Assembly (NCBI GenBank): GCA_030374765.1
Contig: JARGXX010000088.1
Span: 2,604,001 to 2,668,000 of the forward strand
Length of the DNA: 64,000 nt
Source: Agarophyton chilense
Taxonomy: Eukaryota > Rhodophyta > Florideophyceae > Gracilariales > Gracilariaceae
Direction of reading: 5' to 3'
In this document: positions 38,393 through 60,633 of the stretch, in pieces
Layout: each line of letters begins with the position of its first letter
Numbering within the stretch: position 1 is the first letter of the stretch
The notes under the pieces: model-generated
What the model was told of the DNA's origin: nothing
What the model saw: only the letters and a program-made list of their open reading frames with translations
The model's database searches: none
Position numbers and translations under genes: made by a program

Positions 38393-38756
38393 TCTCTGAG
38401 CTTGTCTTGGAGCGGGGTGAAACCCCTCCCCTGCACTTCGAATTGTTCCGAAGCGGGGTTCAAAAACCGTGCTCTTGCACTTTTTCACTCACACGCAGTG
38501 TGTCAGAAAACTTTCCCTGTGAGCCTGTCCTGGAAACCCCCTGATCTTCTACTTGTCCCGAAGCGGGGTGCAAACACCGTGCTCTTGCACTTGTCCCAGA
38601 GCATGGTGGAAAACCCGTGTTCTCTAAACTCGTCCTGGAGCGGGGTGGGAAACCCTGCTCTTGGACTCGTTCCGGAGCGGGGTAGAGAAACCCTGCTCTT
38701 GGAGCTGTCCCGGAGCATGGTAGAAAACCCTGCTCTTGGAGTTGTCCCGGACCAAG
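38393..38756. repeat. About 37-bp minisatellite in copy 1
   Basis: Roughly nine imperfect units, best seen at the right end: each has GGAGCGGGGT or GGAGCATGGT, then AAACCCTGCTCTTGGA, then a TCGTTCC or TGTCCCG variant. The same array stands at 40376..40741 in copy 2 with unit-level changes. Confidence 0.8.
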
Positions 38757-38828
38757 GTGTGCAACGGCACGCGATTGGTCAAGTGTTACACACGTGTCAC
38801 GCTCAGCACTGTACTTCCGCACAGCCGA

Positions 38829-38896
38829 GTGCCACGGCACGCTATTGGTCATCTGCTACACGTGCGTCGCCGTTGACCAATCTGATGCCGTGGCAC
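38829..38896. repeat. CCAAT-box inverted repeat in copy 1
   Basis: Arms GTGCCACGGCA plus ATTGGTCA (38829..38851) and the reverse complement TGACCAAT plus TGCCGTGGCAC (38874..38896), separated by about 22 bases with CACGTGCG-like sequence. A third ATTGGTCA lies at about 38774. The layout resembles a compact promoter. The same structure is at 40814..40881. Confidence 0.65.
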
Positions 38897-38936
38897 TCTT
38901 GTTCCGCGGCCAAGTGGCCCATTCGTATCACACGCA

Positions 38937-38938
38937 GC

Positions 38939-38970
<32 letters not shown>
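38937..38970. repeat. (CA)n microsatellite, copy 1
   Basis: About 17 CA units near the 3' end of the 1.9-kb repeat, followed by AAACATGTGC. A matching run lies at 40924..40955 in copy 2. Confidence 0.95.
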
Positions 38971-38974
<4 letters not shown>

Positions 38975-40375
38975 TGTGCTTTAGTAGTTAGAGACGAGTG
39001 GCTCTGTAGCGTGCTTTGCACGCGTTTGACAGTTTACATATATCGAGATAAAGCTTTGAAAGTAGTCTGTAAAGTTTGTAAATTAGAACCGGCTTGTACA
39101 ATGACGCGCCGTTTCATTCATACGCAAGATGTGAGAAACCGTTCTCTTTGTAAAGAACCGTGCTCTGTGTGAGAACCCGTGATCTTCGGACTTTTTTTGC
39201 AACGCCCATGTGCGCAATTGTGTGCCCAGCGGTAAGCACGCAGTAAGGTGCCATTGCACGTGGATGGATAGTTCATAAGATTTAGAGAGGCAAAAGAAGA
39301 CTTTGAAAGAAACAAAATGTCAACCTCTACGATTTAATATCGAAGACTTTTTCAGGGCAGAATTTCTGGAAAGCCTACACGAAATAGTTTTCTTTCACCG
39401 CTTTACACGCATATTTTGAGTTTAAAATGTACTACGGGAAGGAGTTACATAGATCAAGCCGTGAGAAAAGCAGTTATATTAAATAACGAACTCAACCCTT
39501 CTCCCAAACGATTGCCCTTGTACGATATTGGTAGTCAGGGGAACGCCTTAAGACGAAAACTGGAAACGTATCGTTTCTAGGCTCGCAGGGATTTCTCGCC
39601 AAGCAAAAACGCTGTCCTCTGTACGAACTTGTGGCTAACCGTAATTAGAAAGACTGATTGTCTTTTGTTCCGCTAATTATACTGCCCCATTCACATATCT
39701 CTTTGAAATGTCCACCTTATGCAGAAAATTTAACATGATTCCCTTTATCAGCTTAAAAAATTGATCAAGAATGACAGATTTCGCGCTGACTGCATTCAAA
39801 ACCTCCATTTACGCGCGAGCGCTATTTCTGGGGTTTACATTCTCTACTTTGAGAACAACTCTGTTTTTCACTCTCGAATCTTGTCTGTCGCTTTGTAGTG
39901 GTATTATTTGCACCTTGTTTTCTGGCTCTCTTTCCATTGCGTCACCTGCTCTTTTTATTCTGTTCTGCCGTTCCATTTTTTGGTCTTACGGCTGCATGGT
40001 CACGCTGTTGTCCTCTAAAAACTTCAGCTGATTCGATTGAAGGTATATTCGGCACAATTGCGCAAGGAATTCGGTTTGTGTCCGTGGATGTGTCATGGTG
40101 TACCTCGTGTAAACTGACAATCACCCTAAAAGCTCACCCTCGCAGCGCGTATGAGCTGGATGAGAAGTCCAGCGGTAAGCCCGCAATGAGGCGCCGTTTC
40201 ACTCATAGGCAGGATGTGAGAAACCGTGCTCTGTGGGAGGAACCGTGCTCTGTGTGAAAAGCCATGCTCTTTGGACTTTGCTCGCGGCGCCCATGTGCGC
40301 AATTTTGTGTCCAGCGGTAAGCGCGCAGTAAGGCGCCATTGCACTCAAACGCTGTGTGTCAGGAACTCTTCTCTC

Positions 40376-40741
40376 TGGGCTTGTCCTAAGGCGGGGTGAA
40401 AACCCCCCTGCTCTTCGAATTGTCCCGAAGCAGGATGCAAAAACCGTGCTGTTGCACTTTTGCACTCACACGCAGTGTGTTAGAAACTTTTCTCTCTGGG
40501 CTTGTCCTGGAGCGGGGTGAAAACCCTCTGCTCTTCTACTTGTCCCGAAGCGGGATGCAACAACCGTGCTCTTGCACTTGTCCCAGAGCATGGTGGAAAA
40601 ACTGTTCTCTGGACTCGTCCTGGGGCGGGGTGCAGAACCCTGCTCTTGGACTCGTTCCGGAGCGGGGTAGAGAAACCCTGCTCTTGGAGCTGTCCCGGAG
40701 CAGGGTAGAAAACCCTGCTCTTGGAGTTGTCCCGGACCAAG
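40376..40741. repeat. About 37-bp minisatellite in copy 2
   Basis: Same array as in copy 1 at 38393..38756. The right-hand units are nearly identical between the copies, and the left-hand units differ more. Confidence 0.8.
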
Positions 40742-40813
40742 GTGTGCAACGGCACGCGATTGGTCAAGTGTTACACACGTGTCACGCTCAGCACTGTACT
40801 TCCGCACAGCCGA

Positions 40814-40881
40814 GTGCCACGGCACGCTATTGGTCATCTGCTACACGTGCGTCACCGTTGACCAATCTGATGCCGTGGCAC
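40814..40881. repeat. CCAAT-box inverted repeat in copy 2
   Basis: Same arms and spacing as in copy 1 at 38829..38896, with one change in the loop. A further ATTGGTCA lies upstream at about 40759. Confidence 0.65.
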
Positions 40882-40923
40882 TCTTGTTCCGCGGCCAAGT
40901 GGCCCACTCGTATCACACGCAGC

Positions 40924-42333: not shown

Positions 42334-43031
42334 CTACTGCTCCTTTTAGTACTTCCTTTGATTGAGTTCCTCCTTCCCGTTGCGGTCAGATCCTGATACT
42401 TTCTTCTTTTCTTCTTCTGTTGAAAACTTTCATTCTTCTTTGTGAATGCAGAGAACATCTTTATCTCCATCAAAAGAGTCCACAGAGTACTTTTCGGTGC
42501 TCTGGTTGTGTGTTGTGACCGTACCTCTGTAAAACTGCTTGTCATCTGGCCAATAAAGCTTAATCTCGTCTTCCACGTGTGGAGCAAAACCTGGCGACGG
42601 GAAGTGCTCTCAAGGTGTTCGAAGCCTTGCTCCCTGGGGGAGGCAGACTCAGAGACAGAGCCCTCCGTTCCACCCGTAGTGTGGGGTGTAACTCCCACAG
42701 GGGATTCCGGCAGTACCGACGGAGGTGAGGGGTAGAAACCGTTCGGTCGGGAATGTGTATGGGTGTCCCAAAGAATGGGGGACAATCCGGCGAAGAGGAA
42801 AAAACGGGGCGAGGGTCGGGCACTAACAGGCACCGGACCCGAGAACCAGAAAATGGGCGAAACAACAAAAGAAACCCAATACAGGGGCGAAAACCTGTCC
42901 TCGAAAGGAAACACAAAAAAAGCACGCAGCAAGTAAGCAGAACCCCCACGGGGTATCGTGCACGCAGGTCGTCTGAGCGGTCCCAAGGGGGTGGTTGCAC
43001 GGAACCCAAACGTGGGCACTCTCCAAGTGGA

Positions 43032-44209
43032 TGTAACGCAATGCACTACTCGGGAGACCAGCCGCGGGCGGCGAGAGCTACGCACAGGCAGAGCCTGGAA
43101 AGCCGGGGTCGGCTATCTGGCCCTAGAGTCCGCAACGACTCAAGAGAAGCGTAGTCTCACAGGCGAGGAGTGTCGACTAGACACAGACTCCTATCGTTCC
43201 ACAGGAGCTGTTGGCGTCCGGAAGACGTGCTCGGAGTGGTGTCGATCCGACACGAACCGAAGTGATCGGCCTGGATATACGCCGCGTATGACGAGTAGCC
43301 GGGGCGAGCCCCAGGATTGTACCAGAGCCCGGACGAGCGCCACGGCCCTAACGTCGGCAACGACGCACCAACCACTTCACCCAACGGGTGGCGATAACAA
43401 AGCAGGGCAAGCCCTGAGATTGTACCAGCGCTCAGACGAGAGCGTCTGCTTGGCTATGCCGACTGGCGCCACAAAGTGGTAATCACTCACACCCAACGGG
43501 TAACGATAGCAAAGCAGGGCAAGCCCTGGGATTGAACCAGCGCCCAGACCAATGCGCCTGCCTGGCTTTGCCAGCTGCACCTGGAAGTGATACTCACTTA
43601 TCCGAGGCTCCCGATCCACACCTCGGTATCCAACGGATACGGGTCTACAATCTGCTCGGGCAGTAGAACTGCCAGCGGTCCAATAGACCGAGCGAAAGTG
43701 CAATGCGCCACGCGGCGACCGATGGCCGTGAGGGAAAGGACTGGAGGGGGATACTCGATAGGCTAAAACGCGAGAGATACCTCTGCACCAGTTGATCAGA
43801 CTGCTGCCTGTCTTGTCGGCGTCGACTGGGAACGAAGGTCTGATAACCCTATAGTCTCAAGACACGAACTACTAGTTCGGAGGCGTCTCTCCCGCCTTGG
43901 ACTTTACTTCGGTCTAGCCCCCGGCGACCCGGCGCTCAAGTACCGCCGGCTGCTTAGCAGTTAGCCATTACGATAGATTACAACTAATAAATACAATTAA
44001 AAATTACAAGGCAACAGTGCAGAGCACTGTATGGTGCCAACCACACGAACTAGCTGCCGTCCATGGCCACACGTATGACACCTAGCGCCATGCACGGTAT
44101 TCCATCCTGGCAGTATGCCAGCTATTACGGCGTCGTCACCGCTGAGTGTAAGGAGGTCGGAGGAGGGTGGCTACTTGTCCTCAATAAGGGACCGGCGCGT
44201 TGCGTCACA
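43032..44209 (-). repeat. Gypsy-2 3' LTR (left)
   Basis: 1178 bp, from TGTAACGCAA to TTGCGTCACA, an inverted-end pair. On the minus strand it is preceded by GAGAAGGGGGTGA, the polypurine tract at 44210..44222. Confidence 0.95.
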
Positions 44210-44313
44210 TCACCCCCTTCTCAGCTTGTAGCGTCCCCGCTACAGCCAAGAGTGATCCCGATCACAAGACAGCACAGCATCGCTGATAGTGCTTCAACTG
44301 TGTAACGAACAGT

Positions 44314-46134
44314 ATGATAAGAACGGATCCCTGCAAGCGCCGCCGCGATGGCCACCGTGAACCGCTCTTCGATCGATCGCTTCAACGGGTTCGCTGGGCC
44401 TCAGAGACAACCTTGTTTCGTCCGGAAGTCCCAATAGGACTCGCGAAAGTAGCCACATGGCTACGAGATGTCGCAGAACTCGAAGAGTGCTTCCGCTCAT
44501 ACACCTTCAGAGAGATGGCTAGCCATCCTTCATCGGACCTGACCGTGTGGGGTCGCCGTCACTTCTTGCGACTGCTAATCGAACGACGAGCGCGTCTTGC
44601 CGCGTTCCGCCGCTTAATTTCCGATGACTTCATCGGCCGGGTAGACATCGAGTTCTACCGACGTCCGGCGGATGAGCCGTACGTAGCGAGGACGCTACGC
44701 GAAAGCTTCCTGAACAGGGTTGAAAGTTGGGAAAACGACCGCCCTCTGGTTCACAAGCTTTGCTTGCCTTTCCCGTACCTCTGCGAGGATGCTGAGGGGA
44801 TTCCCTGGCTGACCACCTTCGAGGAAGTCCACAACGGCATGGGTGCCGAGGAGATTGAGCGCATCCTATGGAATCCAAAAATACTCCGGGTGCTGCCTCC
44901 GACGGTCATCCGTGACAACGGAGCCAATTGGGTCCTCGACCCCTGTAGACGCGATGCGTCAGGCGGCTTTGTCGCAAGGGTACTACCTCCGATGGACGCT
45001 TGGCTCGACCAAATCATGACGTACACGCCACATTCTTGGCGACAATTCGAGCGCATGCGCCGCCATAAGTACCAGGTTCTGGTAGCCTACCACCAAGTCG
45101 AGGTCGACTGCTTCCAAAAAGATGTCATCCGCGACATATCATAGCCTTTGCCATCGTGGTGGGAGGAAGTTGAAGTCCCCTACGGGTTCTTCAACGAGAT
45201 TCCGCCGGTAGTCGTCTACCGTGGCTCATACTTCACCACGTATCCTGGATACCAAACAGTGCTCCGCACTGAATGGGCCTGCTCGGTGGCACGCCATCTC
45301 ATCTATGAGGCCCGCGCGGGTCGCTTATGGTGGATCCCTCCACCGGTACGCAAGGACATAAGAGATCTTAATCTCACTGGCGTCGAGCCCGATCTGGCTG
45401 ATGACGAGCGACGCAACGCCGAAGCGAAGAGTCTGGAGACTCTACTCGAATTTATCGACAAGACCTGGTGGTCTTCTCTTCCAAAAGACGGGGTGTTTCC
45501 TGACTTCCCTGCGACGCCACGCGTCCGAATGTTTGGCGCAATGCGCCCTGCCCACAACGATGGAGCAACTCCGGTGCATCGCGGCTGTGATTGGGTTGTC
45601 TTCAACCCAATCCTTTGGACTCTGGACATTCCAGAACAATACCTAGTCATCCATGACCAAGGAGGCAACCTCGTGGTGGAGAATCCGCGGGCGGACTTCA
45701 TCGCTCCTCTCTCTGTAGGCCGGGTATCTACCTCGTCGAACTCGACGAAATCGGTACGCCTTGCAGAATGGCGTCGCCAACAACTAGCGAAGCTAGCCTC
45801 CGAACCGAAGGATGTCGACATGGTCGACCAACCGTTGGTTAAACGGCCAAAACTTGGATTGGTGCCCGCACCGCCAAGTGAGCTTGCAAAAGAGAACTCC
45901 GCTGCAACTCTTCTGGATGCCCTCAAGGCCTACGGGGTGACGAGCCTTGCTCAACTCCAGGCCAGGATGGCCAACAACCCTTCGTCAACTCCGGGACCTG
46001 CTGCAGTAGCCGTACCAACCACTTCGACTACGGTGGCTATCCCTGATATCAGCAGCACTGCCGTGCCTGCAGGGCCGTCGACGGCCCCTGGGGACGAACT
46101 CCTAGGTAGTGAGGAGGAATTATCTCAAGTGTAG
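44314..46134 (+). mobile_element. Antisense accessory region of Gypsy-2, related to that of Gypsy-1
   Basis: Plus-strand coding sequence, opposite to integrase, between the 3' LTR and the chromodomain. Its middle part has WWEEVEVPYGFFNEIPP, WACSVARHL and WWIPPPVR, matching the Gypsy-1 accessory protein in order and spacing. Its N-terminal part has FIGRVDIEFYRR, comparable to RFDVAYYRTY there. The C terminus is Pro/Ala/Thr/Ser-rich, as in Gypsy-1. No known domain recognised. It looks broken, by about one break. Confidence 0.7.
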
Positions 46135-46309
46135 CTGTCCAAACCTTCTTTTCATAAAACAAATGCGTTCCCTTGAACACCTGCTTGCCTCCTTTGCTCT
46201 ACCTTTCCAATAGGTTAGCCATCTAGCGAATGTGTTGGGATTGGGACGGGCTCTGCTCCGGCCGCAATAGCGGGGAGCCCGAACAGGTCCAACAGTTTCA
46301 GTGTAGTGT

Positions 46310-47548
46310 TTACACTTGCGAGTTTGCCTCAGCGGGTTCCACTAGGTCATGAGTGGAGCCATGGTTAGATCGCAGAAGTATCTCATCCCGGTTGGGGACG
46401 CTGATCTTTTGTCGTCGGCAGTAGCGAGCCACGAGGTTCCACGGCAGGCTATCAGCGGTGTGGAAGGTGTCTTCCTCTGCTGTATATCCGAGCCACCGAA
46501 CTTTGTACTCACGTTTCTCTGCCGCTCCCTGTGTATGACCCACTATCTTGTCTATGACGCTTTCGTCATCTCCCGTCACCGCGGGCGGCTTAGACGCCCC
46601 AATGACTACGTGGTCCAAGTTATGACGCTCCTTGAGTCCTTCGTTCTCAATAAGGACCGTGTGGTTTTCCTCGTCACCGCAGATGACCTTGTAAGGTCCG
46701 ACGACCTTTCGTCTCAATTTACGGGAGATCTTCTCACCTGGAACCTCTGGCTCCCTAGGGTCTAAGTGCCCTTGCAGGTACACATACGTACCGGGTTCCG
46801 GAATTCGCTTCTCAACGACGCGAGCATCGTACCGCTGCTTGTAGCGTTGCTGCGCTTTAGTTAAGGCACCGGTCGCGCGCGACAGCAGTTGACGCAGCTG
46901 TGTCAAAAACTGCATCTTAATCTCGCGAGGAGCCTTCCCTTTTAGGGTTCCGAGTCTCTGTAGAGCCAGCGGCTCCGGGGCGTTAGCGAGTACCAACTCG
47001 AACGGGAAATGGCCGGTGCTAGAATGGACTTGTGTATTGTACCCAAAGGTTAGCGCATCGCTGTAAAGGTCCCAGTTGTGCTGATGCTCAGCAACATAAT
47101 GCCTCAAGGCAGACAACATGGTTCGGTTGAACCTTTCGACTTGACCGTTGGTCTGCGGATGGTACGTGGACGTGAAGAGGTTCTTGATGCCAAGGATTTG
47201 GCAGGCGCTCTGAAAGAACTTCGAGGCGAAGTTAGATCCATTGTCCGACAGAACAGTGACGGGTGGTCCGTAGACAAACACCCAATGGGTGCAGAACGCC
47301 CTTTCAATTGCGAACGCATCGGTGTTCGACAAAGGGATGGTCTTCGTCAACTTTGTGAAGCGGTCACAGATCACCAGCAAGTAACGATTACCTCTACTCG
47401 TAGTCTGAAGTGGCCCCAGGATGTCGATCGCGACACTTTCCAGCGGTGCGGTCGCCGGGAACAGCTTCAATCGGGAGCTTTTTCTCACAAGAGAAATCCT
47501 CTCCTTCACACACGAGTCGAGTGAATTCCACCCTAGGCGAGGTAGCAA
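46310..47548 (-). mobile_element. Gypsy-2 integrase and chromodomain
   Basis: Minus strand: integrase core phrases VAIDILGPL (about 47425), VLSDNGSNFASKFF (about 47250) and NGQVERFNR (about 47140), a GPY-like segment (LRRKVVGPYKVI near 46690), then a chromodomain (YKVRWLGYTAEEDTF near 46490). Part of a fossil element. Confidence 0.88.
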
Positions 47549-47944
47549 GAGCTACCGATGGTGTGTTCACTGGCACACTAGGACCTGCGGGTCCGGAGGA
47601 AGAAGGTTCTTCCATGACTGGGGAGGGTGAGAAGGCAGCTTCTCTCGCAGTCGCTGACTGCGCCTCCCCCGGCTTCGGGCCATGGGCTAACTGGGCAACT
47701 CGGAAAAGTTTCGGGGGTTTGCTTCCGCTGAGTTCTGGGGCGTTGTTCTTTGAAGAACTAGACTCTCGACCACTGCCCGAAACGGACTGATTGTCGTTCG
47801 AAGCCGAACGCCCGAAGGAAGCACCTGATCGGGTGCTCATGACTGGGTCCGGGTGACGACCTGGGCAAAAAGACGAGTATCTCCTTGAATTTGAAGAAGT
47901 GAGACTGCGTAGTCTCTTGTGTTTCTAAGTCGGGAAACCAGAAA

Positions 47945-49122
47945 TGTAACGCAATGCGCTACTCGGGAGACCAGCCGCGGGCGGCGAGAGCTACGCACCG
48001 GCAGAGCCTGGAAAGCCGGGGTCGGCTATCTGGCCCTAGAGTCCGCAACGACTCAAGAGAAGCGTAGTCTCACAGGCGAGGAGTGTCGACTAGACACAGA
48101 CTCCTATCGTTCCACAGGAGCTGTTGGCGTCCGGAAGACGTGCTCGGAGTGGTGTCGATCCGACACGAACCGAAGTGATCGGCCTGGATATACGCCGCGT
48201 ATGACGAGTAGCCGGGGCGAGCCCCAGGATTGTACCAGAGCCCGGACGAGCGCCACGGCCCTAACGTCGGCAACGACGCACCAACCACTTCACCCAACGG
48301 GTGGCGATAACAAAGCAGGGCAAGCCCTGAGATTGTACCAGCGCTCAGACGAGAGCGTCTGCTTGGCTATGCCGACTGGCGCCACAAAGTGGTAATCACT
48401 CACACCCAACGGGTGACGATAGCAAAGCAGGGCAAGCCCTGGGATTGAACCAGCGCCCAGACCAATGCGCCTGCCTGGCTTTGCCAGCTGCACCTGGAAG
48501 TGATACTCACTTATCCGAGGCTCCCGATCCACACCTCGGTATCCAACGGATACGGGTCTACAATCTGCTCGGGCAGTAGAACTGCCAGCGGTCCAATAGA
48601 CCGAGCGAAAGTGCAATGCGCCACGCGGCGACCGATGGCCGTGAGGGCAAGGACTGGAGGGGGATACTCGATAGGCTAAAACGCGAGAGATACCTCTGCA
48701 CCAGTTGATCAGACTGCTGCCTGTCTTGTCGGCGTCGACTGGGAACGAAGGTCTGATAACCCTATAGTCTCAAGACACGAACTACTAGTTCGGAGGCGTC
48801 TCTCCCGCCTTGGACTTTACTTCGGTCTAACCCCCGGCGACCCGGCGCTCAAGTACCGCCGGCCGCTTAGCAGTTAACCATTACGATAGATTACAACTAA
48901 TAAATACAATTAAAAATTACAAGGCAACAGTGCAGAGCACTGTATGGTGCCAACCACACGAACTAGCTGCCGTCCATGGCCACACGTATGACACCTAGCG
49001 CCATGCACGGTATTCCATCCTGGCAGTATGCCAGCTATTACGGCGTCGTCACCGCTGAGTGTAAGGAGGTCGGAGGAGGGTGGCTACTTGTCCTCAATAA
49101 GGGACCGGCGCGTTGCGTCACA
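47945..49122 (-). repeat. Gypsy-2 5' LTR (right)
   Basis: 1178 bp, the same length as the left LTR and nearly identical to it. The primer binding site TGGTTTCCCGACTTAGAA (minus strand, 47923..47940) lies four bases inside. Confidence 0.95.
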
Positions 49123-49599
49123 GTGGAGTCGTGTCCCTACGCAGGCGTTGCTAACCAGAGCCCGTTCCGGGTTGTAAGGCCGAAACGATGGCGACGAAGA
49201 ACCTCTAAAGATATCGAAGACCAACCTTGGTTCCCATTTACTCTGAGCTTCGGACTGTGAGATCTCGTCTTCCTAAGTAGGACCCGCTAACTAAACTCTA
49301 CTAGTTACAGTAGTGCACACCTGCTCAGGGCCATACACGTGGAGATCCCACTGTCAGGGCCCAAAAGTCCAACGTTCTAACAAATATCCGAAAATCGGTG
49401 CCGAAATTAAGCCACGTGTACCACGGGGCCAATCCAACCATGGTCCATCCGAATCCTTTCTTCCTAGGCGAACTCTAACCAGAAAACTGGGCCACCTCAG
49501 CACACCTTAGAGGGGATCATAGTCATAACCCTCGGAAAGTTCAACCCTCATCCTATGAGTTGCATCTTCAAGTATCCCCTAACTGGGCGTTGCTCTACA

Positions 49600-49612
49600 T
49601 CTCCCCCTCCTT
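49600..49612 (-). other. Gypsy-1 polypurine tract
   Basis: On the minus strand, AAGGAGGGGGAGA directly precedes the 3' LTR, as expected for the primer of plus-strand DNA synthesis. This confirms the minus orientation. Confidence 0.75.
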
Positions 49613-49680
49613 AAGACGAAGAAGAACATTCCGAGCCGCGGGTGTCTCGCTTTCCGGTCACTATATATACTTCTCTCCCA

Positions 49681-51495
49681 ATGGGGTCCTTCACCACTTC
49701 TGAGGATCGCCACAAAACCGGCACATCGGTACAACTTTCTTCTACGCCTCCGACTTTCGGCGATAAGCAACTTCTCGCAACAGCAGTCCCAACCAGCCCT
49801 CTCAAGAAAAAGAACCCATACGTCAGCAACCAAATCTCGGGGCCGTTGGCCTCCGCGCCGGCGGACAACGAAGCACCCCAGCAGGGTGGATATCTCTCCG
49901 GTTTTGATGCGGCTCCGTCGGGTACCGAACCTTCCGCCTCGGCGAGCAACCGACATCCTCAGGAGGATTTGGACATTAACGCGGTGGCGTGGAACTCCGC
50001 TCATGCGATGCCCTTGGTAGCAAACTCCAGAGGTTGGATCTCAAACGAATCCTTTCGAAGGTGGAGTCCCCTTACCGATCCGGTGATACATTCCCGCGCT
50101 CCGTGGTTCCATCCGGCAGCGGTTCGCGACGATGAGCTCATCGACTCCTACGTGGAGGACGGCTTATTGCCGGGTGACCTACCTATCGAGGTTGTACGTT
50201 CTCCCGATTGGAGGGCGCGGGTAGCCATAGAGCCTCAGTATCTATACCGCGGTCGCGGGGAGTCCCTAGACAAGGCGCGCGCAGCGGTGGCGGCTCTGGC
50301 CTACCAGCGATTGGAGAGGTCACGCTTTGACCATCTGGTTCCCCCGGAGTACAGGTTCGATGTCGCCTATTACCGCACGTACGGTGAGGTCTCCTACGGG
50401 GATAACCTGGCACCCTTTCCCGAAGCCGAGTTCCGCGGACCGGGTTTTCCTCTTCGAGAAGATATGCTCCAATGGAGTCGTCCCATCCTTCCGGCTGAAT
50501 TCAGGTACCTTCAACGGCAGTTTACCCAGTATGGGTTCGATCGACGCGTGCGCTTCGAGCGCCGCTCGCGCTCCCGTTTCGGGTTCCTTGTCCCGTATCC
50601 TCACGTGGAACTGGAGCGTATCCGTAACACGGCGAAGGTTGGGCGATTCGTGCCCCTTCCAGCTTGGTGGAGTAAGGTCGACGTCCCCCGAGGGCGCTTT
50701 GCTGAACTTCCCCCGTGCATCTACTATATCGGGTCTCGTTTGATGCACGACCCGAACTCGGGATACTGGGCCCTCGTTGCAGCCGATTGGGCAGCCCGCG
50801 TAGCGGCGCACCTCCTCTGGGATGCTCATGACCATTTCCGTGTCTGGTATATTCCTCCGATGCTACGGACCTTCATGCGTCAGATCGACCTTGTCTCAGC
50901 GTTGGGTTCGGTCAGCAACGTGCAAGACCTGTATCCAATCTTGGACGTGATCGACAACACCCAATGGGATCGAGTTCCAGTGGAAAATCAGCCCGCAGGG
51001 GAAAGATCTGCGCAAGACAAGTCTCCTGGCCGGTACGATCCGGTCTCCGGTAACTGGGTCTATTACAATCCCTTCGAAGGGGTTCGCATCAGCGCGGCGC
51101 AAGCACGGGCGCTGATGGACTCGCCTCGACCGATGCCGGTGGGACACCCGACGGGGTTCATTTATACCGACGATTACGAGTGCGAGCCTCCAGTAGACCT
51201 GGACGATCCAGCATTGGATAACAACATGCCAGCTCCTAGTGGAGTACTCCCTGTGGAGCCATCTGCACCCTTCCAACCAGTGGGAACGACCTCAGCTGCG
51301 GCGGCGAATGCATCCGGTGGCGGTCCATCTGCTCCCCCCGGGTGGGGTGTGAACACCCTTGCGCAGGCGCCGGTTGCCACTCCGCAAGCGGATAGTGTGC
51401 GACAAGGCCTCGTGAGCGCGGGCATTCCGATTCCCCCGGGTATGACGGATGTGAGCCAGATGTTGGCTTTCGCCTCGGCGTACCATCAGGGTTAG
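49681..51495 (+). CDS. Antisense accessory protein of Gypsy-1, unknown family
   Basis: A 604-aa frame on the strand opposite to gag-pol, between the chromodomain and the 3' LTR, running away from that LTR. The frame opens earlier with GTG at 49642; the first ATG is 49681. A TATA-like CTATATATAC lies at 49661, only about 20 bp before the ATG. N-terminal 90 residues are low-complexity. The middle has aromatic, Arg-rich sequence (FDVAYYRTYG) and a core of PAWWSKVDVPRGRF, then WAARVAAHLLWDA and WYIPPMLR. The C terminus is Pro/Ala/Gly-rich. The core matches the antisense region of Gypsy-2 (WWEEVEVPYGFF, WACSVARHL, WWIPPPVR). No known domain recognised. Part of a fossil element; this frame looks whole. 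Confidence 0.75.
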   Translation: MGSFTTSEDRHKTGTSVQLSSTPPTFGDKQLLATAVPTSPLKKKNPYVSNQISGPLASAPADNEAPQQGGYLSGFDAAPSGTEPSASASNRHPQEDLDINAVAWNSAHAMPLVANSRGWISNESFRRWSPLTDPVIHSRAPWFHPAAVRDDELIDSYVEDGLLPGDLPIEVVRSPDWRARVAIEPQYLYRGRGESLDKARAAVAALAYQRLERSRFDHLVPPEYRFDVAYYRTYGEVSYGDNLAPFPEAEFRGPGFPLREDMLQWSRPILPAEFRYLQRQFTQYGFDRRVRFERRSRSRFGFLVPYPHVELERIRNTAKVGRFVPLPAWWSKVDVPRGRFAELPPCIYYIGSRLMHDPNSGYWALVAADWAARVAAHLLWDAHDHFRVWYIPPMLRTFMRQIDLVSALGSVSNVQDLYPILDVIDNTQWDRVPVENQPAGERSAQDKSPGRYDPVSGNWVYYNPFEGVRISAAQARALMDSPRPMPVGHPTGFIYTDDYECEPPVDLDDPALDNNMPAPSGVLPVEPSAPFQPVGTTSAAAANASGGGPSAPPGWGVNTLAQAPVATPQADSVRQGLVSAGIPIPPGMTDVSQMLAFASAYHQG

Positions 51496-51936
51496 AATCC
51501 CAACGGTGGGGCGGGTCCCTCCTCGGGCTTTCCGTAGTTCCGCCTTCGGGCAATTGTGAAGTCCATAGCTTGGAGACAATAGTAAACTTCTGATATTTGC
51601 ATAACTTCTTTTCTTCTTCCTTCATAAGATCTTAACTTCTACTTCTTTTCTTCTTCCTTCTTAGGATCTTCTTCATCTTCGTCTTCATCTTCTTCCCTTC
51701 CTAGGGTCCAATCTTCTTCTTAATCTTCTTCTCCACTTCGTGGGTCTTCTTTTCCTTTTTCATCATAAACTGTCCCGATAACCGGTGCTGTGTTCCCCGG
51801 TTAACGGCGCTAGGCCGAGGGCCAGTAGACATTCCCTCTCAATAAGTGTTCTTCGAGATACTCTCCTCAATTCCTCTTCAGAGGTCCAACATATTCCTCA
51901 CTTCGAGGTCCCATCCACACCAGCTCCCGTGGTGGC
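51496..51936. other. Gypsy-1 spacer between accessory frame and chromodomain
   Basis: Between the two converging frames lies a strongly CTT/TTC-rich stretch (about 51600-51770) on the plus strand, i.e. a purine-rich tract on the minus strand. No gene is seen. It could hold 3' ends for both transcripts. Confidence 0.5.
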
Positions 51937-52227
51937 TTACCCGACTTGGGCACGATCCAGATTTGGAGGCAAGGTTACCCGAGCGCGTCGGTGACAGGAT
52001 AAAACCTTAGACCTCGGAAGGTGCTCAATGGGTTCCACTGTATCCTCATCAGGCGAGAATCCGTACCATCGGACTTGGTAGCGAACTTCTCCCTCGAAGG
52101 TGTAGATGTGACGCACGATGCGATCGATAACGAATTCCTGCGGGTACACTTTTCCCTGTTCGGGCTTCTCTTCCATCTTGGAACGCTCCAGTTCCCTTGA
52201 GGGTGTCAACGTAGGGTCTAGACACAC
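51937..52227 (-). mobile_element. Gypsy-1 chromodomain
   Basis: The minus strand reads FVIDRIVRHIYTFEGEVRYQ, followed by VRWYGFSPDEDTVEP, the canonical chromodomain pattern with its aromatic residues. Chromodomains at the integrase C terminus define chromoviruses and are known to steer integration to particular chromatin. Part of a fossil element. Confidence 0.85.
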
Positions 52228-52752
52228 CCCGGTGGGTTCTTTTCCGTGTTGCGAGCGGGTCTCAGCACTTCGTCCAAACGGCGCCGAGTGGCCTGTGGGC
52301 TACGTTGTAACTTCCGTCTACGGAATCAAAACGGCCCAGTTTCGGATTCTTCTCAAGGCTGAGATCTTCCCGATAACAACGGTGTTCTTAGATTCCGTGA
52401 CGGTTGAGAAACCGCGACGCGGTAGCGTCTCCAATCTCAGGGGAGTAAGACTTCAACGTCAACCCGAGCTACGGGGACGAAGGTTGCTCCCGTGCAATGC
52501 GCCGTGCGACGGAGGCGGTTTGCGCGACGGTTGGTCGTCAGAGCCTTTTGATTGGCTCGGTGCCATTCGACGTGTGCCACACAAATGCGCGGGCGCCCCG
52601 TGCGGGGTGACCGTTCCTTGTGCGGGAAAATCTGCATATGCAGATGTGAGGTGGCGGTTTCGACACGCGCTAGCACTCTCCTGAGCTGTCCCCGACGGGT
52701 CTCACTCATTTCTTTCCCATTCCTGAGGGTTCCAGTGTCTCCATAGGAGTTC

Positions 52753-55700
52753 TTATCCCCATTCCATAACGGAGAGCCAAATTTGGTCAACCTCGTCGTC
52801 GAGATCTTCCACGTGCGAGTCCGCTGACACAGCTCGTTCCCGAGAAAGCGGGGTTTGAGTGTGCGACACCTCAGTGTCTCGTCCGCGGCGGCGGGTGATC
52901 GTCGGCTCTGTAGGCGTTCCGGGTGCGGAGTTCTCCACACGACTCTCCCTAGGCGCGGTTTCGTCATCTTTTCTGACGTCGTGCTCGGCTGGGTCGGCGG
53001 TGATGTCGCTACCCATACGCTGGGGTTGTGACTTCTCTATCGCCGGTTCGGTCGGGCTCGCCGTCTCACTGTGAAAAATAGATTCCCTGTTAGGGCGACT
53101 GGCTGACGCCGAAGCATCGTCCTGCGAAGGAACTAAGTCCTCCTCCCCCTCCTTAGGCGGAGAGCCAGGAGGCTTGATTACCTCCGGTGGGGGAGTAACT
53201 CTGTAAGAGTTCGCTGACTGGGCCCTTGAGGGAGCGGGCCCAGGTTCGGGAGTATCCGAAGTTTCCGGTAGGTCGGTTAAACCACGTTCCGGGTGCGGAA
53301 GTATAACGGGGCGGGTGTTCGAATCTCCGCCTGACGGGTTAACTTCCGTTGAATCATCCCCTGTGGAGGGCGTTGGTGCCGACACCACTTCCACATTTGG
53401 GTTGGGCGCTCGTGTGATGCGGTCCCTGGAGATCCGTTCGTGGCGGTTAGCGATATCCAATACCAACGTGTCCGGGTCTACAGAAACCACACGATAGTGT
53501 CCGTCCACAATTGGCGAAAGCTTGTGCCTACGTTCCTTTTCAGGATTGTAGTATTCCTTTCGAAGGAAGACGAAGTCGTCGGGCTCCACCTGAGGTAGAG
53601 GTTTGCGAACCCGATTGTCAAAGTCCTTCTTCTAGGCGCGTTGAGCTTTGTCCATTGCTTTCCGGGCTATCGGTACCATCTTCGTAAGTCACTCCTTCCA
53701 GGCTTCTCGGTACAATCCCAGTGACGGGTACGTCGACAGCGTCGGTTGAGCCTCGATGGCGACCGGCGGCGGTGTCCTCGACAGTACCAGTTCGAATGGG
53801 GATAACGATGTAACCCGATGAAACTGGGTGTTGTATGCATACGTGATAGCGTCTGTGTACAAGTCCCAATTTTTGGGGTGATCCGCAACATGCGATCTCA
53901 AAGCGTTGAGTATCGTACGGTTAAACCTCTCCACCTGGCCATTCCCCTGACGGTGATACGTAGTAACAAATAAATTCCTTACATCAAGGACTCGACATAC
54001 ATCCTGAAAGAACTTTGATGCGAATTGCCCTCCGTTGTCGGATAACAACTGCACCGGCGGTCCATATACCAGCACCCAATGGGTCACGAACGCTTGCGCG
54101 ACGGTAGCGGCGGTGATCCGCTTCAGCGGCACAGTTCTCGTTAGCTTAGAGAATCTGTCAGAAATGACAAGCAGATACCGATGGCCTCGGGACGTCCTGA
54201 TAAACTCCCCTAGGATATCTATGGCCACGAATTCGAGTGGAGCCCGTGCCGGGAACAGAGTCAACTTCTTAGAGTGCTTCCGAAGTTTGACGTCATTCTT
54301 GGCGCAATTGGCGCAGGCCCGTCTGACGGGGTAACAATCGAATGCCATTGCCGGCCAGTAAAAGTCCCTTCTCAACGTGAGGTACTGTTTTCTTCCCCCG
54401 GGGTGGGCGCCAACCTTCACATAGTGAGTGAGGTGTAATACCCTCTGTTGTAGGGTGTGCGGCACCACTATCCTCGGGCGAGGTCCAACGGTCCTGATTA
54501 GGTAACCCTGATCGTCGTCCTCGAAAGGTAACTGAAATCCTCCGTTGAGGCGAGCCCGAATCCGTGTACAGAATGGGTCGAGCTGTTGCTCGCGTATCAT
54601 CTCCTCTGGAGAGATAGGTATAAAAGAGCCGGTCGGCGAATCCAGACTCTCGTTGACGAGTATATCGTCACAAACATCATCCGTCAGTGGTTGAGCTCCT
54701 CCCTCGAGGTCCGATACCATAAAACATGGGATGTCATCGTCCTCGTAGGGTTCCGTTTCCGCTGTGGTTCCCAAGCGGGATAGTGCACCAGCCTGAGTGT
54801 TCAGCTTCCCTTTCTTGTACAGGATCTCAAAGTCGAATTCCGACAGTCGGAGACGCCAGCGCATAAGGCGGCCCGAGGGTTCGGAGATCTCCAGGAGCCA
54901 ACGCAAGCATGCGGGGTCCGTATGGACTTTGAAACGAGTACCCATCAGATAGGGGTGAAGTGTAGCTAAGGCCCACACAACGGCTAAACATTCTTTCTCG
55001 GAGACCGAGTAGTTCCTTTCATTGACATTCAGGGAACGTGACCAGTACCCAATAGGGTGACGTTCACCATCCTCAGAGGATTGGAACAGTGCACACCCTA
55101 CTTGGTTTGCACTAGCATCGGTGTCCACTTCGTAAGAGAGCCCAGGATTGGGTAGAGCCAAGATTGGCGGTGATGTTACGGCATTCACCAGTGCCGTGAA
55201 GGCAGACGCTTCCGCGTCGCCAAAAGGTTCCAGTTCAACTGATTGTCCCTTCGTCAGGAGCCTGTTGAGGGGGGTGGCAATATCCGCAAAGTTCGGGACG
55301 AATCGGCGATACACGTTACACAAACCTAAGAAGGATCGCAAATCCGTTTGAGTTTTCGGGTGTTTTGCTTCCTTCAAGGATTTCACTCGCACTTTATCGA
55401 TTAAAAGCTGTCCGGGACGGATGATATGACCCAGATACTTAACCGAATCGGTGAAAACTCGCACTTCTTGAGTTTCAAGGTGATTCCCGCGTCGCGGAGT
55501 ATCTTCATTACGTCCCTGACGTGTTGGAGGTGGTCATCCAGGTTGTTGGAGAAGACAATAATGTCGTCTAAATACACTAGACACGTCTTCCACTTGAAGG
55601 GAGCCAACAGAAAGTCTATCGCCCGTTGAAACGTTGCGGGGGCATTTGTAAACCCAAAAGGCATCCTCCGGAATCGGAAAAGTCCTTGATGACACACGAA

Positions 55701-57284
55701 AGCCGTTTTGTCTCGATCTTCCTCCCTAATAGGGACTTGCCAGTAGCCCGAATTGGCGTCAAGGGTAGAGAAAACAGTAGCGCTCCCAAGGGAGTCGATG
55801 TATTCGTCCATCCGAGGGATCGGGTACACATCCTTAATGGTTACCTCGTTCAGGCGTCTGTAATCGATGCAGAAACGCCACGATCCATCCGGTTTCGGAA
55901 CTAGCACCACTGGTGAGGCCCAAGCGGACTGGGCAGGTTCAATTACGCCCGCTTCAAGCATCTTCTCCACCTGAGATTTCTCCTCTTCCCGAGCTTTCGG
56001 TCCAGCACTGTAAGGGTTTTGGGCAATAGGCCGAGTGTTCGGTAACAAGTCGATGCGGTGTTCTGTAATCCCAATAGTTCCAAGGGAACCATCCCACATG
56101 GGGGTAAATTCACGAAGTATGTGCCTCAGCTTCTCCCGATGAGATGCGGGTACATGGTTGAGATCCCATTTCTCCAATTCCTGAACAGGATCCGTCTGGT
56201 CTGCTCCTGTGATAGGGGCCGTAACCTCCTGAGGTTTAAAGTGTTCAGCGTGTGGAGCTGCAGTCGTATGCTCACCGTCTTCCGCGATTTCGGCAGTGTC
56301 CTCCCCCTCCTTAGGGTCCGCCACCCCAAGGACCTCTGGGATAGAGATCTTTGTAGGTACGATCGCAAGCGGGTGTGGAAGAACAGAACCCAGGATCTGG
56401 TGTTTGACCAAATGCTGCGTTGTCTTTCCAAAGTTAGCTACCAAAACCTTGAAAGGTTTATCCGGTTCCACGGAGACAACCCCATTCGCAAGGGCGAGTT
56501 GACGCCGCGTATACAGAGACGGGTTCGGTTGTACCACATGCACACAAATTTGCTTGGTAACAACTGTGACCCAAATTTGGGTTTCTGGCGGGATAGCCAC
56601 TGACTTCGCAACCTTTACCCGTGTAGACACCGGGTCCTTCTTCACAGATTCCTGCGCGACAGGGAGAGGAACGCGTGTTCGCGCTGCTCCCCGTAAGGGT
56701 TTACGAACGATTGGGATCGTAGACCCGTCTTCGAGTTCCACAGTTCTATTCCGAGGATGGATGGCTTCCACGAAGCGGTCGCGAAAGTCACAACCCAGTA
56801 TGACTGGTGCTGCAAGTGACTTGCATACAATAAACTCTAGCTGAACGAGATAGGAGCCTAACCTCACCATGAGGGAAATTGTACTCGGTGTCCGTAGCGG
56901 GTTGTTGTTCGCATCGGCGATATCCAAACGTGGACCGGTACGAACTTGAACCCGGAGCAGCGGGGGTAACAATTCAACATGAATTAAGTTAGGAGCGGCT
57001 CCTGTATCCAGGACAGATATTTGACGAACCATAAACTGGTTGGACAGGCCGAAGTCGGCGAATACTTTATAATTCCGCTTGGCCATTACCATAACTCGAT
57101 CCGGAATACGGAGATTACGGGACCGTATCCACGGGCGACGGAGGACACTAAAGTATCCCGAGTTAACGTCGGTGTCAGCCGTTCTCCTTGAAAGGATAGT
57201 CACAGCTGGGGAGCGAAGCTGGAGCGCCTCGGGCGTCTTCAACTCCGGCTTAGAAGACGCCCCTCCCGCAGGGGAGACTCCCAA
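52753..57284 (-). mobile_element. Gypsy-1 pol region: protease, RT, RNase H, integrase
   Basis: Domains in minus-strand order: aspartic protease (VLDTGAAPN near 57010), reverse transcriptase (VYLDDIIVFS near 55565), RNase H (YEVDTDASANQ near 55125), integrase zinc finger (HYVKVGAHPGG near 54415 and a CANCAKND pair), integrase catalytic core (FVAIDILGEF near 54220 and LLSDNGGQF near 54040), and a GPY/F-like C-terminal module (VFLRKEYYNPEK near 53560). The domain order is that of Ty3/gypsy. Broken, with a small number of breaks. Confidence 0.9.
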
Positions 57285-57286
57285 GT

Positions 57287-59317
57287 TTAGTTTTTCGAAG
57301 CGGACCCCACCGAATTCGGTGCAGCTGCCTCGAAGGGGATCAGTTGTTCCCCGTTCGCGGGTACAAGTTCTGTATCCCTGTCAGCAAGGTGAGCTCGGAG
57401 TATCCTTTGTTCCTCATAGGACCTACTCGGGACTCGAGCTTTCTCCTCAGGGGTCAGAGCCTCGTACTGAGCGATATTTCGTGAACCCTCCCGCAGGCGA
57501 AATGTGCAGTCTGGTGCTTTGTGACCACAGAGGTAACACAAATAGCAAATTAGCTCTGCCGGGTTCGGTTGTGGACGTGAATCCACGCGACGTGGTGCTG
57601 TATCGCTCCATCCGGGGCGAGAGAACCGAGCAGCGGTATTCGCAAAATGTAGCGATGCGGCTGGCACCCTCCGTCCTTGGGTATAAAGCGCAGGGTCTTC
57701 ATCCGTAGTCGGAGCGGATGTCGACGGCAACTCAGACGTACCCATAGATTCGGGGTTACTTCCCATGAAGTGAATGTTATCATTGACCCCCACAGGGGCA
57801 GGGCCTCCTGCGAGTGACAACGACGAGTTACCTCCATCGGCGAAGAGTGCACGTGTCGGCCGACTCTTTCGGTTCTGCCGGGCACGGAGAGTATCCCCCT
57901 CAGCCTGGGCGTACTGAACCAGTTCCAAGTAGGTCAGCTTGCGCTTCTCTTCCCGATGTCGGGCAACCAATGCCCTTATCGAGGGGTCCAAACCATCCAC
58001 AAACATGGTGCATCTCTCGTAGGCGGGGAATACATTCCCGCATCGGTGAAACGCTTTATTCAAGCGAGTTGAATACACCGTTTCGGTTTCCATCGGCTTC
58101 TGCCGCGTATCCCTTAAGGCAAGGATTGCTTCCTGAATCGCATTTCCAGTAGCGTATGACCTCAAGAGGTACTGCACCGCTTCGGGCAAGCACGTGACTC
58201 CCCCTTCCGAGGCTCGGGATGATCCACGGACGGAGCTGAACTGGTCTTCAGCCATCCCCTTTAAGAAATAGGGTAATGCAAGATACGCTTGCGCTTCACT
58301 CATACCAAGGATGTCAGCCTCCTGGACGAACCTCGCAAGGAAATCGAGCACCAGAATTGGGTCTGTTCCTGTGAACTCCCTCTTCTGTAGGGTGATGCTC
58401 AGCCTTTTGATGTAGTCCTTGACCTTACCCGTTCCGTGGGATGTTCGATCTCCCGAAGGGTTATCCAACCGGTAATAGCGGTACGATAGCAGCTTCAGAT
58501 AGAGAGGATTCGTCGGCTTCAGCTCCCTTAATCCAAGGTGTTTCCTACACTTCTTCCGGGTACGGATTGCCCCTTGAGAGGTGTAAGTAGCCTTCGACCG
58601 AGTCGCCCGGGATGACCGGCGTCCATCTTCACTATCCGAAGATTCGGAGGACGAACTCGATGAAGAGCGATTGGGATCAGAATCCGATAAATCCTCTTGG
58701 AGGTGAACCCTCTTCTTGGACTTACGGCGGTCCCGTTCAGCGGAGCGGTGTTCTTCGTCTTCCGAAACGTCGGGTTTATCCTTCGAGGCTTCTGTGTCTC
58801 CGTCCATACGGATAATGGCCTCGAGGGTGTCCAGCCGAGCTCGGAAGCGTTCCGCTTGCACGCGGTGTTCCTCCACGAGGCTCCGGTACTCCTGGATAAA
58901 GACCCCAGGGGTACAAAAGCTTTCCAAAAGAGAGTTTGCATCCCTCCTCAGGGTACGAAGGTCATCGGCGACTCCCCGCTCCTGGACGTCCTCCACTTTG
59001 CAGCGGAGGGTAGTAACCTCCTGAAGGAGCTCGACGTGAGCCGCGTTGGCGATATCGATTCGAGTCTCCAGGCGCTGTAATTCAGGGTCGGCCCGACTTC
59101 GGGGTGCTGCTGAGGGGGTCTCCACCACTGGAGCTGGGCCCACAGCCACGACCTCTCGAGGACCTGAAATCACTGAGGGTGCTCTCCGAGTGTCCGGATC
59201 GATACCGGAATCGTTCCGATCTTCGGGAATTGAGCTCCTCGACCTAGGCGGGGCCGGGGGCACTGAATCCGCTTGACGGTTCGATCCAGTCCTGGAACCA
59301 CGGGTAGTCGGCGGCAT
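57287..59317 (-). CDS. Gypsy-1 gag-like polyprotein
   Basis: A minus-strand frame of about 676 aa starting MPPTTRGSRTG. It has an N-terminal disordered part, a coiled-coil-like helix (LQEVTTLRCKVEDVQE), a Ser/Asp-rich stretch, a capsid-like helical middle region, and a C-terminal zinc knuckle CYLCYLCGHKAPDC, which fits C-x2-C-x4-H-x4-C. It would form the particle shell and bind element RNA. Treated as part of a fossil element; this frame looks whole. Confidence 0.8.
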   Translation of the reverse strand: MPPTTRGSRTGSNRQADSVPPAPPRSRSSIPEDRNDSGIDPDTRRAPSVISGPREVVAVGPAPVVETPSAAPRSRADPELQRLETRIDIANAAHVELLQEVTTLRCKVEDVQERGVADDLRTLRRDANSLLESFCTPGVFIQEYRSLVEEHRVQAERFRARLDTLEAIIRMDGDTEASKDKPDVSEDEEHRSAERDRRKSKKRVHLQEDLSDSDPNRSSSSSSSESSDSEDGRRSSRATRSKATYTSQGAIRTRKKCRKHLGLRELKPTNPLYLKLLSYRYYRLDNPSGDRTSHGTGKVKDYIKRLSITLQKREFTGTDPILVLDFLARFVQEADILGMSEAQAYLALPYFLKGMAEDQFSSVRGSSRASEGGVTCLPEAVQYLLRSYATGNAIQEAILALRDTRQKPMETETVYSTRLNKAFHRCGNVFPAYERCTMFVDGLDPSIRALVARHREEKRKLTYLELVQYAQAEGDTLRARQNRKSRPTRALFADGGNSSLSLAGGPAPVGVNDNIHFMGSNPESMGTSELPSTSAPTTDEDPALYTQGRRVPAASLHFANTAARFSRPGWSDTAPRRVDSRPQPNPAELICYLCYLCGHKAPDCTFRLREGSRNIAQYEALTPEEKARVPSRSYEEQRILRAHLADRDTELVPANGEQLIPFEAAAPNSVGSASKN

Positions 59318-59510
59318 GCTGCAGACACGACACCGACGATTCGGGGTATCACGAGATTCCCGGAGAACGGATGACGTAACACAAAACAAAAATAAAAACC
59401 AATTCCACCCTTTTCAAAGGAGACCAATACAACAAATCTTTACGACGGTGCTTCCTCTTCCAAGAGATATTCCAACACGTGGATGACCAACCCAAAAGTC
59501 CGAGAACGGA

Positions 59511-59528
59511 TTCTAAGTCGGGAGACCA
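59511..59528 (-). other. Gypsy-1 primer binding site
   Basis: On the minus strand, TGGTCTCCCGACTTAGAA lies two bases after the 5' LTR. It begins TGG, as expected for pairing with a tRNA 3' CCA. Gypsy-2 has almost the same site (TGGTTTCCCGACTTAGAA). Confidence 0.7.
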
Positions 59529-59530
59529 CT

Positions 59531-60455
59531 TGTGGAGCAAAACCCGGCGACGGGAAGTGCTCTCAAGGTGTTCGAGGCCTTGCTCCCTGGGGGAGGCAGA
59601 CTCAGAGACAGAGCCCTCCGTTCCACCCGTAGTGTGGGGTGTAACTCCCACAGGGGATTCCGGCAGTACCGACGGAGGTGAGGGGTAGAAACCGTTGGGT
59701 CGGGAATGGGTATGGGTATCCCAAAGAATGGGGGAAAATCCGGCGAAGAGGAAAAACGGGGCGAGGGTCGGGCACTGACAGGCACCGGACCCGAGAACCA
59801 GAAAAGGGGCGAAACAACAAAAGAAACCCAATACAGGGGCGAAAACCTGTCCTCGAAAGGAAACACAAAAAAAGCACGCAACAAGTAAGCAGAACCCCCA
59901 CGGGGTATCGTGCACGCAGGTCGTCTAAGCGGTCCCAAGAGGGTGGTTGCACGGAACCCAAACGTGGGCACTCTCCAAGTGGAGTCGTGTCCCTACGCAG
60001 GCGTTGCTAACCAGAGCTCGTTCCGGGTTGTAAGGCCGAAACGATGGCGACGAAGAACCTCTAAAGGTATCGAAGACCAACCTTGGTTCCCATTTACTCT
60101 GAGCTTCGGACTGTGAGATCTCGTCTCCCTAAGTAGGGCCCGCTAACTAAACTCTACTAATTACAGTAGTGCACACCCGCTCAGGGCCATACACGTAAAG
60201 ATCCCACTGTCAGGGCCCAAAAGTCCAACGTTCTAACAAATATCCGAAAATCGGTACCTAAATTAAGCCACGTGTACCACGGGGCCAATCCAACCATGGG
60301 CCATCCGAATCCTTTCTTCCTAGGCGAACTCTAACCAGAAAACTGGGCCACCTCAGCACACCTTAGAGGGGATCATAGTCATAACCCGCGGAGGGTTCAA
60401 CCCTCATTCTATGAGTTGCATCTATAAGTATCCCCTGACTGGGCGTTGCTCTACA
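59531..60455 (-). repeat. Gypsy-1 5' LTR (right)
   Basis: 925 bp with inverted ends: TGTGGAGCAA at 59531 and TTGCTCTACA at 60455. It matches the left LTR and the solo LTR at 8988..9902. Confidence 0.95.
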
Positions 60456-60633
60456 CCACGCTTAGACATTTCTGTCCGACGGAGGAACTGTCTTTTTCTG
60501 GCAACTGATGTACTGGAGTGCGGATATGTACGGTGTCATTGTCAGGCTGTGCGTATAGAGTGCGTACCGTCTACATAATTGCCTCTTTAAGGATTCTGTC
60601 TATGTCTTCGACGGCATCCTGTACAGCAGAAAC

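Follow-up and report, generated by a model that had tools for sequence, protein, structure and literature searches.

Several kinds of long terminal repeat (LTR) element carry a gene on the strand opposite to their main coding frames. In plant Ty3/gypsy elements of the Tat lineage, two accounts describe antisense frames (TRP28 of Retand, gene23 of Grande, and that of RIRE2) which lie between pol and the 3' LTR, are retained in most copies, and have been proposed to act in trans on element expression or persistence (PMC7264820, PMC11963269). A third account presents HBZ of human T-cell leukemia virus type 1 (HTLV-1) and APH-2 of HTLV-2 as 3'-end antisense genes that are driven by the 3' LTR and regulate the virus (PMC10186651). 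The brtn gene of the Boty elements of Botrytis and Sclerotinia, which are ascomycete fungi, is described as having the same kind of antisense arrangement. Here we analysed two Ty3/gypsy elements in a 64,000-nucleotide stretch of Agarophyton chilense DNA (contig JARGXX010000088.1, positions 2,604,001 to 2,668,000; the window), each with a gene that runs opposite to gag-pol and, like the plant frames, occupies the interval from pol to the 3' LTR. The arrangement is thus already known from plants, fungal Boty elements and deltaretroviruses; what is new is the protein family, in a new phylum. No account of such a gene in red algae was found in the open-access literature text.

The two elements, Gypsy-1 and Gypsy-2, are nested in the right part of the window, and both lie on the minus strand. 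The original prediction had placed a long coding region on the opposite strand of each:

49681..51495 (+): Gypsy-1 antisense accessory gene, intact, 604 amino acids
44314..46134 (+): Gypsy-2 antisense accessory gene, with an in-frame stop at 45142-45144 in the window copy

The prediction held, and the gene proved more widespread than it had stated, but the Gypsy-2 window copy is broken by its stop codon. The location between chromodomain and 3' LTR was correct, both chromodomains being where they had been placed (Pfam E 1.1e-7 in Gypsy-1 and 1.8e-4 in Gypsy-2). In each element the plus-strand frame starts inside the edge of the 3' LTR, by 82 bp in Gypsy-1 and 105 bp in Gypsy-2, and stops short of the chromodomain end of pol. 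Between the LTR and the pol tail of Gypsy-1, the longest stop-free run is 626 codons, against a maximum of 444 and a mean of 182 in 1000 dinucleotide shuffles; in the window copy of Gypsy-2 the longest uninterrupted piece (329) is barely above the shuffle maximum (315 in 1000 shuffles).

Both genes are present in many copies. A genome search with the Gypsy-1 frame gave at least 71 near-full places among 1854 candidates; protein identity was 100% for the window and 91-94% elsewhere. The Gypsy-2 piece used as a query returned 37 rows of its own family, 31 of them spanning at least 90% of the piece. In the Gypsy-1 set, made up of the window copy and 20 of the 70 other copies, 13 of 21 had a frame free of stops, insertions and deletions; in the remaining 8, stops fell at differing codons. 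Of the 30 Gypsy-2 loci, a set that includes the window's own, 6 read without a stop or indel (L010, L012, L023, L024, L026 and L030, with L023 aligned one base short); some Gypsy-2 stops were common to several copies, chiefly tandem ones. The open copies that were read encode 550-608 amino acids.

The proteins of the two elements share a core, as had been claimed: they are 32% identical over 193 residues (E 7e-22 in a single comparison), and a profile-profile comparison gave 99.3% for homology over 184 aligned columns of the core region. No convincing alignment was obtained between their N-terminal halves. In the genome, the C-terminal half of the Gypsy-2 protein matched, below the rows of its own family, a further 85 with identities of 37-42% and E values from 4.5e-17 to 2.3e-14; a large number of these are Gypsy-1 places. 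Three further groups extended the family. A third family, G3, was found downstream of one integrase match of 70% identity (L060), with the antisense relative on the opposite strand; its frame is interrupted in L060 and open in L061, and the best 92 of 2116 candidate places were scored. The G3 protein (L060/L061) is 43% identical to that of Gypsy-1 over 290 residues (E 8e-77), and its antisense ATG lies about 170 bp from an LTR edge judged by eye. G5 (L062), known from its antisense gene, encodes an intact relative of 608 residues, 36% identical to the Gypsy-1 protein over 469 (E 2e-82). The G4 group is known as matches only: 39 of 98 listed rows were 47-51% identical to P0009, and 18 of the 39 had open frames of 651-652 residues; at least one of the 39 (C105) is probably a Gypsy-1 copy. 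Finally, we asked how often an integrase gene is accompanied by the antisense gene. When the best 150 of 3143 candidate places for the Gypsy-2 integrase were scored, 83 had an antisense-gene match downstream on the opposite strand among the matches listed, and 7 of these 83 pairs involved G4-type matches. Homologues of the gene are thus present in other elements and, as described below, in other species.

Some copies stand in regular series. Gypsy-2 copies lie head to tail on contigs C5 and C78, repeating every 9,734 bp (C5: 10306, 20040, 29774, 39508), as if sharing LTRs in a tandem array. G3 copies are also regularly spaced on C68 (3138019, 3147216 and 3156413, a period of 9,197 bp), and two more lie at 295826 and 305075 on C77.

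The pattern of divergence between families shows selection on the amino-acid sequence. Over 353 codons, Gypsy-1 and G3 are identical at 0.56, 0.65 and 0.33 of first, second and third positions respectively (0.27, 0.25 and 0.29 when shuffled), with a nonsynonymous rate (dN) of 0.59 and a synonymous rate (dS) of 2.98, which is saturated. On this codon evidence the between-family signal is strong. It also bears on the idea that RNA structure or cis signals are what preserves the DNA, the frame having arisen by chance or as the mirror of a sense gene. Sense-strand frames of 126-171 residues do overlap the Gypsy-1 gene; none, however, exceeds 171, the open run is longer than in any shuffle, and it is in the antisense frame that second positions are conserved and third positions approach randomness. 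We regard such a by-product as scarcely credible.

Within families, we compared variants according to the number of copies that carry them, after dropping 7 near-identical or tandem loci from the 30 of Gypsy-2. For variants common to at least two copies, the dN/dS ratio (omega) was about 0.54 in Gypsy-1 and 0.61 in Gypsy-2, a value reached by 8 of 500 simulations in each. For single-copy variants it was about 0.72 in Gypsy-1 (reached in 1 of 500 simulations) and 0.98, near neutral, in Gypsy-2. The pol frames of the same families gave 0.62 (Gypsy-1) and 0.65 (Gypsy-2) for shared variants, near the values of the antisense gene, with 5 of the 20 Gypsy-1 copies having too little pol for this control. 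Near its start, the pol frame of Gypsy-1 in the window is not of the same length as in the copies; without that row, 560 codons still gave 0.81 for single and 0.48 for shared variants, the latter value being reached in 53 of 500 simulations and so not significant. For the pol-tail frame the ratios were 1.34 (single) and 0.60 (shared). These comparisons show a protein kept by selection, in the pattern expected of a gene constrained in active elements and decaying almost freely after insertion. The retention by selection suggested by the original prediction is accordingly supported: of the outcomes named there as refuting it, neither a dN/dS near 1 across many copies nor a lack of homologues in other elements was observed.

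The protein begins with a variable low-complexity stretch, followed by a middle region (motifs APWFHP, DWR, RPILRAEFRY and ER..R..GYFVPY), the core (WW..VPxGxF..ELPP, EWAxRVA and WYIPPxxR), a stretch with F[ND]P[FW] and PRxxPxxHPxG, a proline/alanine-rich linker, and a predicted C-terminal hairpin. Two parts can be placed on the Gypsy-1 gene:

50545..50886 (+): most conserved core, residues 289-402, with ER..R, WW, VPxGxF, WAxxVA and IPPxxR
51385..51489 (+): predicted C-terminal helical hairpin, residues 569-603, with an AlphaFold2 predicted local distance difference test score (pLDDT) of about 57-76

A hairpin-like stretch is also found in G3, G5 and those database relatives that retain the C-terminus, and a shorter one is possible in Gypsy-2. 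Searches of Pfam, PHROGs and NCBIfam, and of the PDB by sequence, matched no known domain, in line with the first reading of the locus, which had recognised none. The parallel with plant Tat elements drawn there therefore stands for the arrangement and fails for the protein and its carriers. As described in the literature cited above, Retand is a non-chromovirus of flowering plants in which TRP28 (PF04195) is nearly always present, whereas the elements here are chromodomain elements of a red alga; TRP28 was not matched in Pfam, either by the Gypsy-1 and Gypsy-2 pieces at E 0.1 or by Gypsy-1, Gypsy-2, G3 and P0001 at E 1. Likewise HBZ, our working model of mechanism, is a bZIP-type protein, whereas the Gypsy-1, Gypsy-2, G3 and P0001 proteins had no bZIP match in Pfam and LTR-driven antisense transcription in the red alga is a presumed feature.

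The gene occupies the env position, from pol to the 3' LTR, so that an envelope-like protein or one for cell-to-cell spread had to be considered. The usual hydropathy mark for a membrane stretch is about 1.6; the best 19-residue values in the proteins examined were 0.93-1.45, and none of the 7 had a membrane stretch. With the coding strand also the wrong one, we consider an envelope role very unlikely, and the missing membrane stretch is the reason for preferring a regulator. The protein could also serve in building the element's particles, as a structural or assembly factor and in effect a second gag-like protein from the other strand: a length of 550-608 residues, a tryptophan-rich core, a proline/alanine-rich linker and a terminal hairpin would all serve a scaffold. 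The antisense protein nevertheless had no similarity to the Gypsy-1 gag-like frame, and it would be strange for gag dosage to be matched by way of a separate antisense transcript. On these two grounds a regulator is preferred here too, and a particle factor seems improbable.

The remaining features of the elements in the window are as follows:

42578..43031 (-): Gypsy-1 3' LTR, outer piece; target duplication CCACG at 42573-42577
43032..44209 (-): Gypsy-2 3' LTR, 105 bp from the antisense ATG
46310..47548 (-): Gypsy-2 integrase and chromodomain frame
47945..49122 (-): Gypsy-2 5' LTR
49123..49599 (-): Gypsy-1 3' LTR, inner piece; begins with the GTGGA duplication from Gypsy-2, 82 bp from the antisense ATG
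51961..52149 (-): Gypsy-1 chromodomain (Pfam Chromo)
52753..53589 (-): Gypsy-1 pol tail frame, without a Pfam match
53689..55464 (-): Gypsy-1 pol frame with RNase H and integrase (Pfam)
55401..57284 (-): Gypsy-1 pol frame with reverse transcriptase (Pfam RVT_1)
57287..59389 (-): Gypsy-1 gag-like frame, named by position
59531..60455 (-): Gypsy-1 5' LTR; target duplication CCACG at 60456-60460

Gypsy-1 spans 42578-60455 with the 5-bp duplication CCACG flanking both ends, and Gypsy-2 (43032-49122; 5-bp duplication GTGGA) is inserted within its 3' LTR. Their LTRs are clearly different, as predicted, at about 925 bp in Gypsy-1 and 1178 bp in Gypsy-2. Of 1179 aligned positions, 7 differ between the two Gypsy-2 LTRs, compared with 18 of 478 for the inner piece of the Gypsy-1 3' LTR; Gypsy-2 is therefore the younger. 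No Pfam gag match was obtained for Gypsy-1, so its gag is assigned from its place. Neither a gag nor a reverse transcriptase frame was seen among the open reading frames and Pfam matches of the window's Gypsy-2 copy, which has likely suffered an internal deletion. Gypsy-1 and G3 (chromodomain E 1e-5) pass Pfam's cut-off and are chromoviruses, that is, chromodomain Ty3/gypsy elements, by the chromodomain at the C-terminus of pol; the Gypsy-2 match is weaker than the cut-off.

Elsewhere in the window, a 566-residue frame at 2953-4653 (-), between acyl-CoA oxidase and octopine-dehydrogenase-like genes, has a match to the CCT motif (E 7.4e-17). Another region that lies outside both gypsy elements (37064-40902) is duplicated and contains direct repeats of at least 0.2-0.3 kb, spaced by about 1.9-2.0 kb and 89-97% alike.

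Relatives of the protein occur in other algae. The G3 query gave 5 proteins in all; the named relatives are BWQ96_03215 of Gracilariopsis chorda (71% identical to G3) and FGB62_50g12 of Gracilaria domingensis (47%, its predicted sequence lacking part of the core), and four further relatives are unnamed database proteins, including P0001 (48% to Gypsy-1). A tree was built from 12 rows, and two of its branches are long; in it the G3 copies, the G. chorda protein, P0006 and the G. domingensis protein formed one clade (100/100), with the order within it not settled; Gypsy-1 paired with P0001 at a support of 86/94, short of the usual mark. From this one tree, the lineages of the antisense gene seem older than the algal species. 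The phycobilisome-linker family matched 13 places in the genome, 7 on contig C39 (taken as plastid) and 6 elsewhere, one of them on the window's contig (C88, 3.1 Mb); among 14 control genomes, Synechococcus alone had such matches. These linkers, together with Gracilariaceae as the nearest named relatives, identify the host as a red alga.

Thus several families of chromodomain Ty3/gypsy elements in this red alga have a conserved antisense gene just inside the 3' LTR, with homologues across families and algal species and with selection on its amino acids. We propose, at a probability of roughly 45%, that it encodes an antisense-expressed, trans-acting regulator of element expression or persistence. 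An antisense mRNA would be driven by a promoter within the 3' LTR or next to it, and the protein would be made from this mRNA; by analogy with HBZ, the protein, produced from the element's opposite end, would then influence in trans how the element itself is expressed or persists. A bolder form of the proposal, which we hold as possible and more tentatively, is an independently evolved second strand of the deltaretrovirus kind: an ancient, fast-diverging regulator of novel domain at the 3' LTR end, inherited since before Gracilaria and Gracilariopsis split and needed for element success.

The protein might instead suppress host defence, a role also offered as a guess in the original prediction, acting on host chromatin or RNA silencing and not on the LTR. 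The VANC proteins of plant VANDAL elements are anti-silencing factors of this type. Large families of similar, often open copies would suit such a role, and a gene on its own strand would function while the sense promoter is silenced. Against this, no domain was matched, and in the copies C to T changes were only 1.3-2.2 times as frequent at CpG sites as at other cytosines, so that there is little to suggest heavy CpG methylation for such a protein to counteract. We think an anti-silencing protein rather doubtful, although the regulator is preferred to it by a small margin.

Several observations weigh against a selected regulator carried by these elements in general. Among the matches listed, 66 of the 150 integrase matches had no antisense gene, which may be absent from some families, and one pair was on the same strand (C7:693202-697581), perhaps through rearrangement or because a second element is nested there. 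The test on shared variants is modest in both families, the pol controls alone were not significant, single-copy variants indicate mild constraint in Gypsy-1 and near neutrality in Gypsy-2, and variants in at least four copies (omega 0.48 in Gypsy-1 and 0.47 in Gypsy-2) were too few for significance (n=11 and 28). The copies were moreover picked by protein similarity and are biased toward intact ones. As to function, both AlphaFold2 models were poor (mean pLDDT 33 and 42), the hairpin and the helical stretches of and after the core being better, and the domain searches recognised no DNA- or RNA-binding domain. Four proteins are mildly acidic (isoelectric point 5.5-6.4), and among 7 examined only that of Gypsy-2 has lysine/arginine clusters of the nuclear-signal type; the sequence therefore does not favour a classical DNA-binding nuclear regulator.

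The family unites proteins listed in databases as 'hypothetical protein', and its occurrence at no fewer than 332 places across an 80 Mb genome, together with the relatives in other Gracilariaceae, makes their function directly testable. As a large, clearly selected, multi-family case in a red alga, with no domain that can be recognised, it suggests repeated use of the 3' end of LTR elements as a second coding strand.

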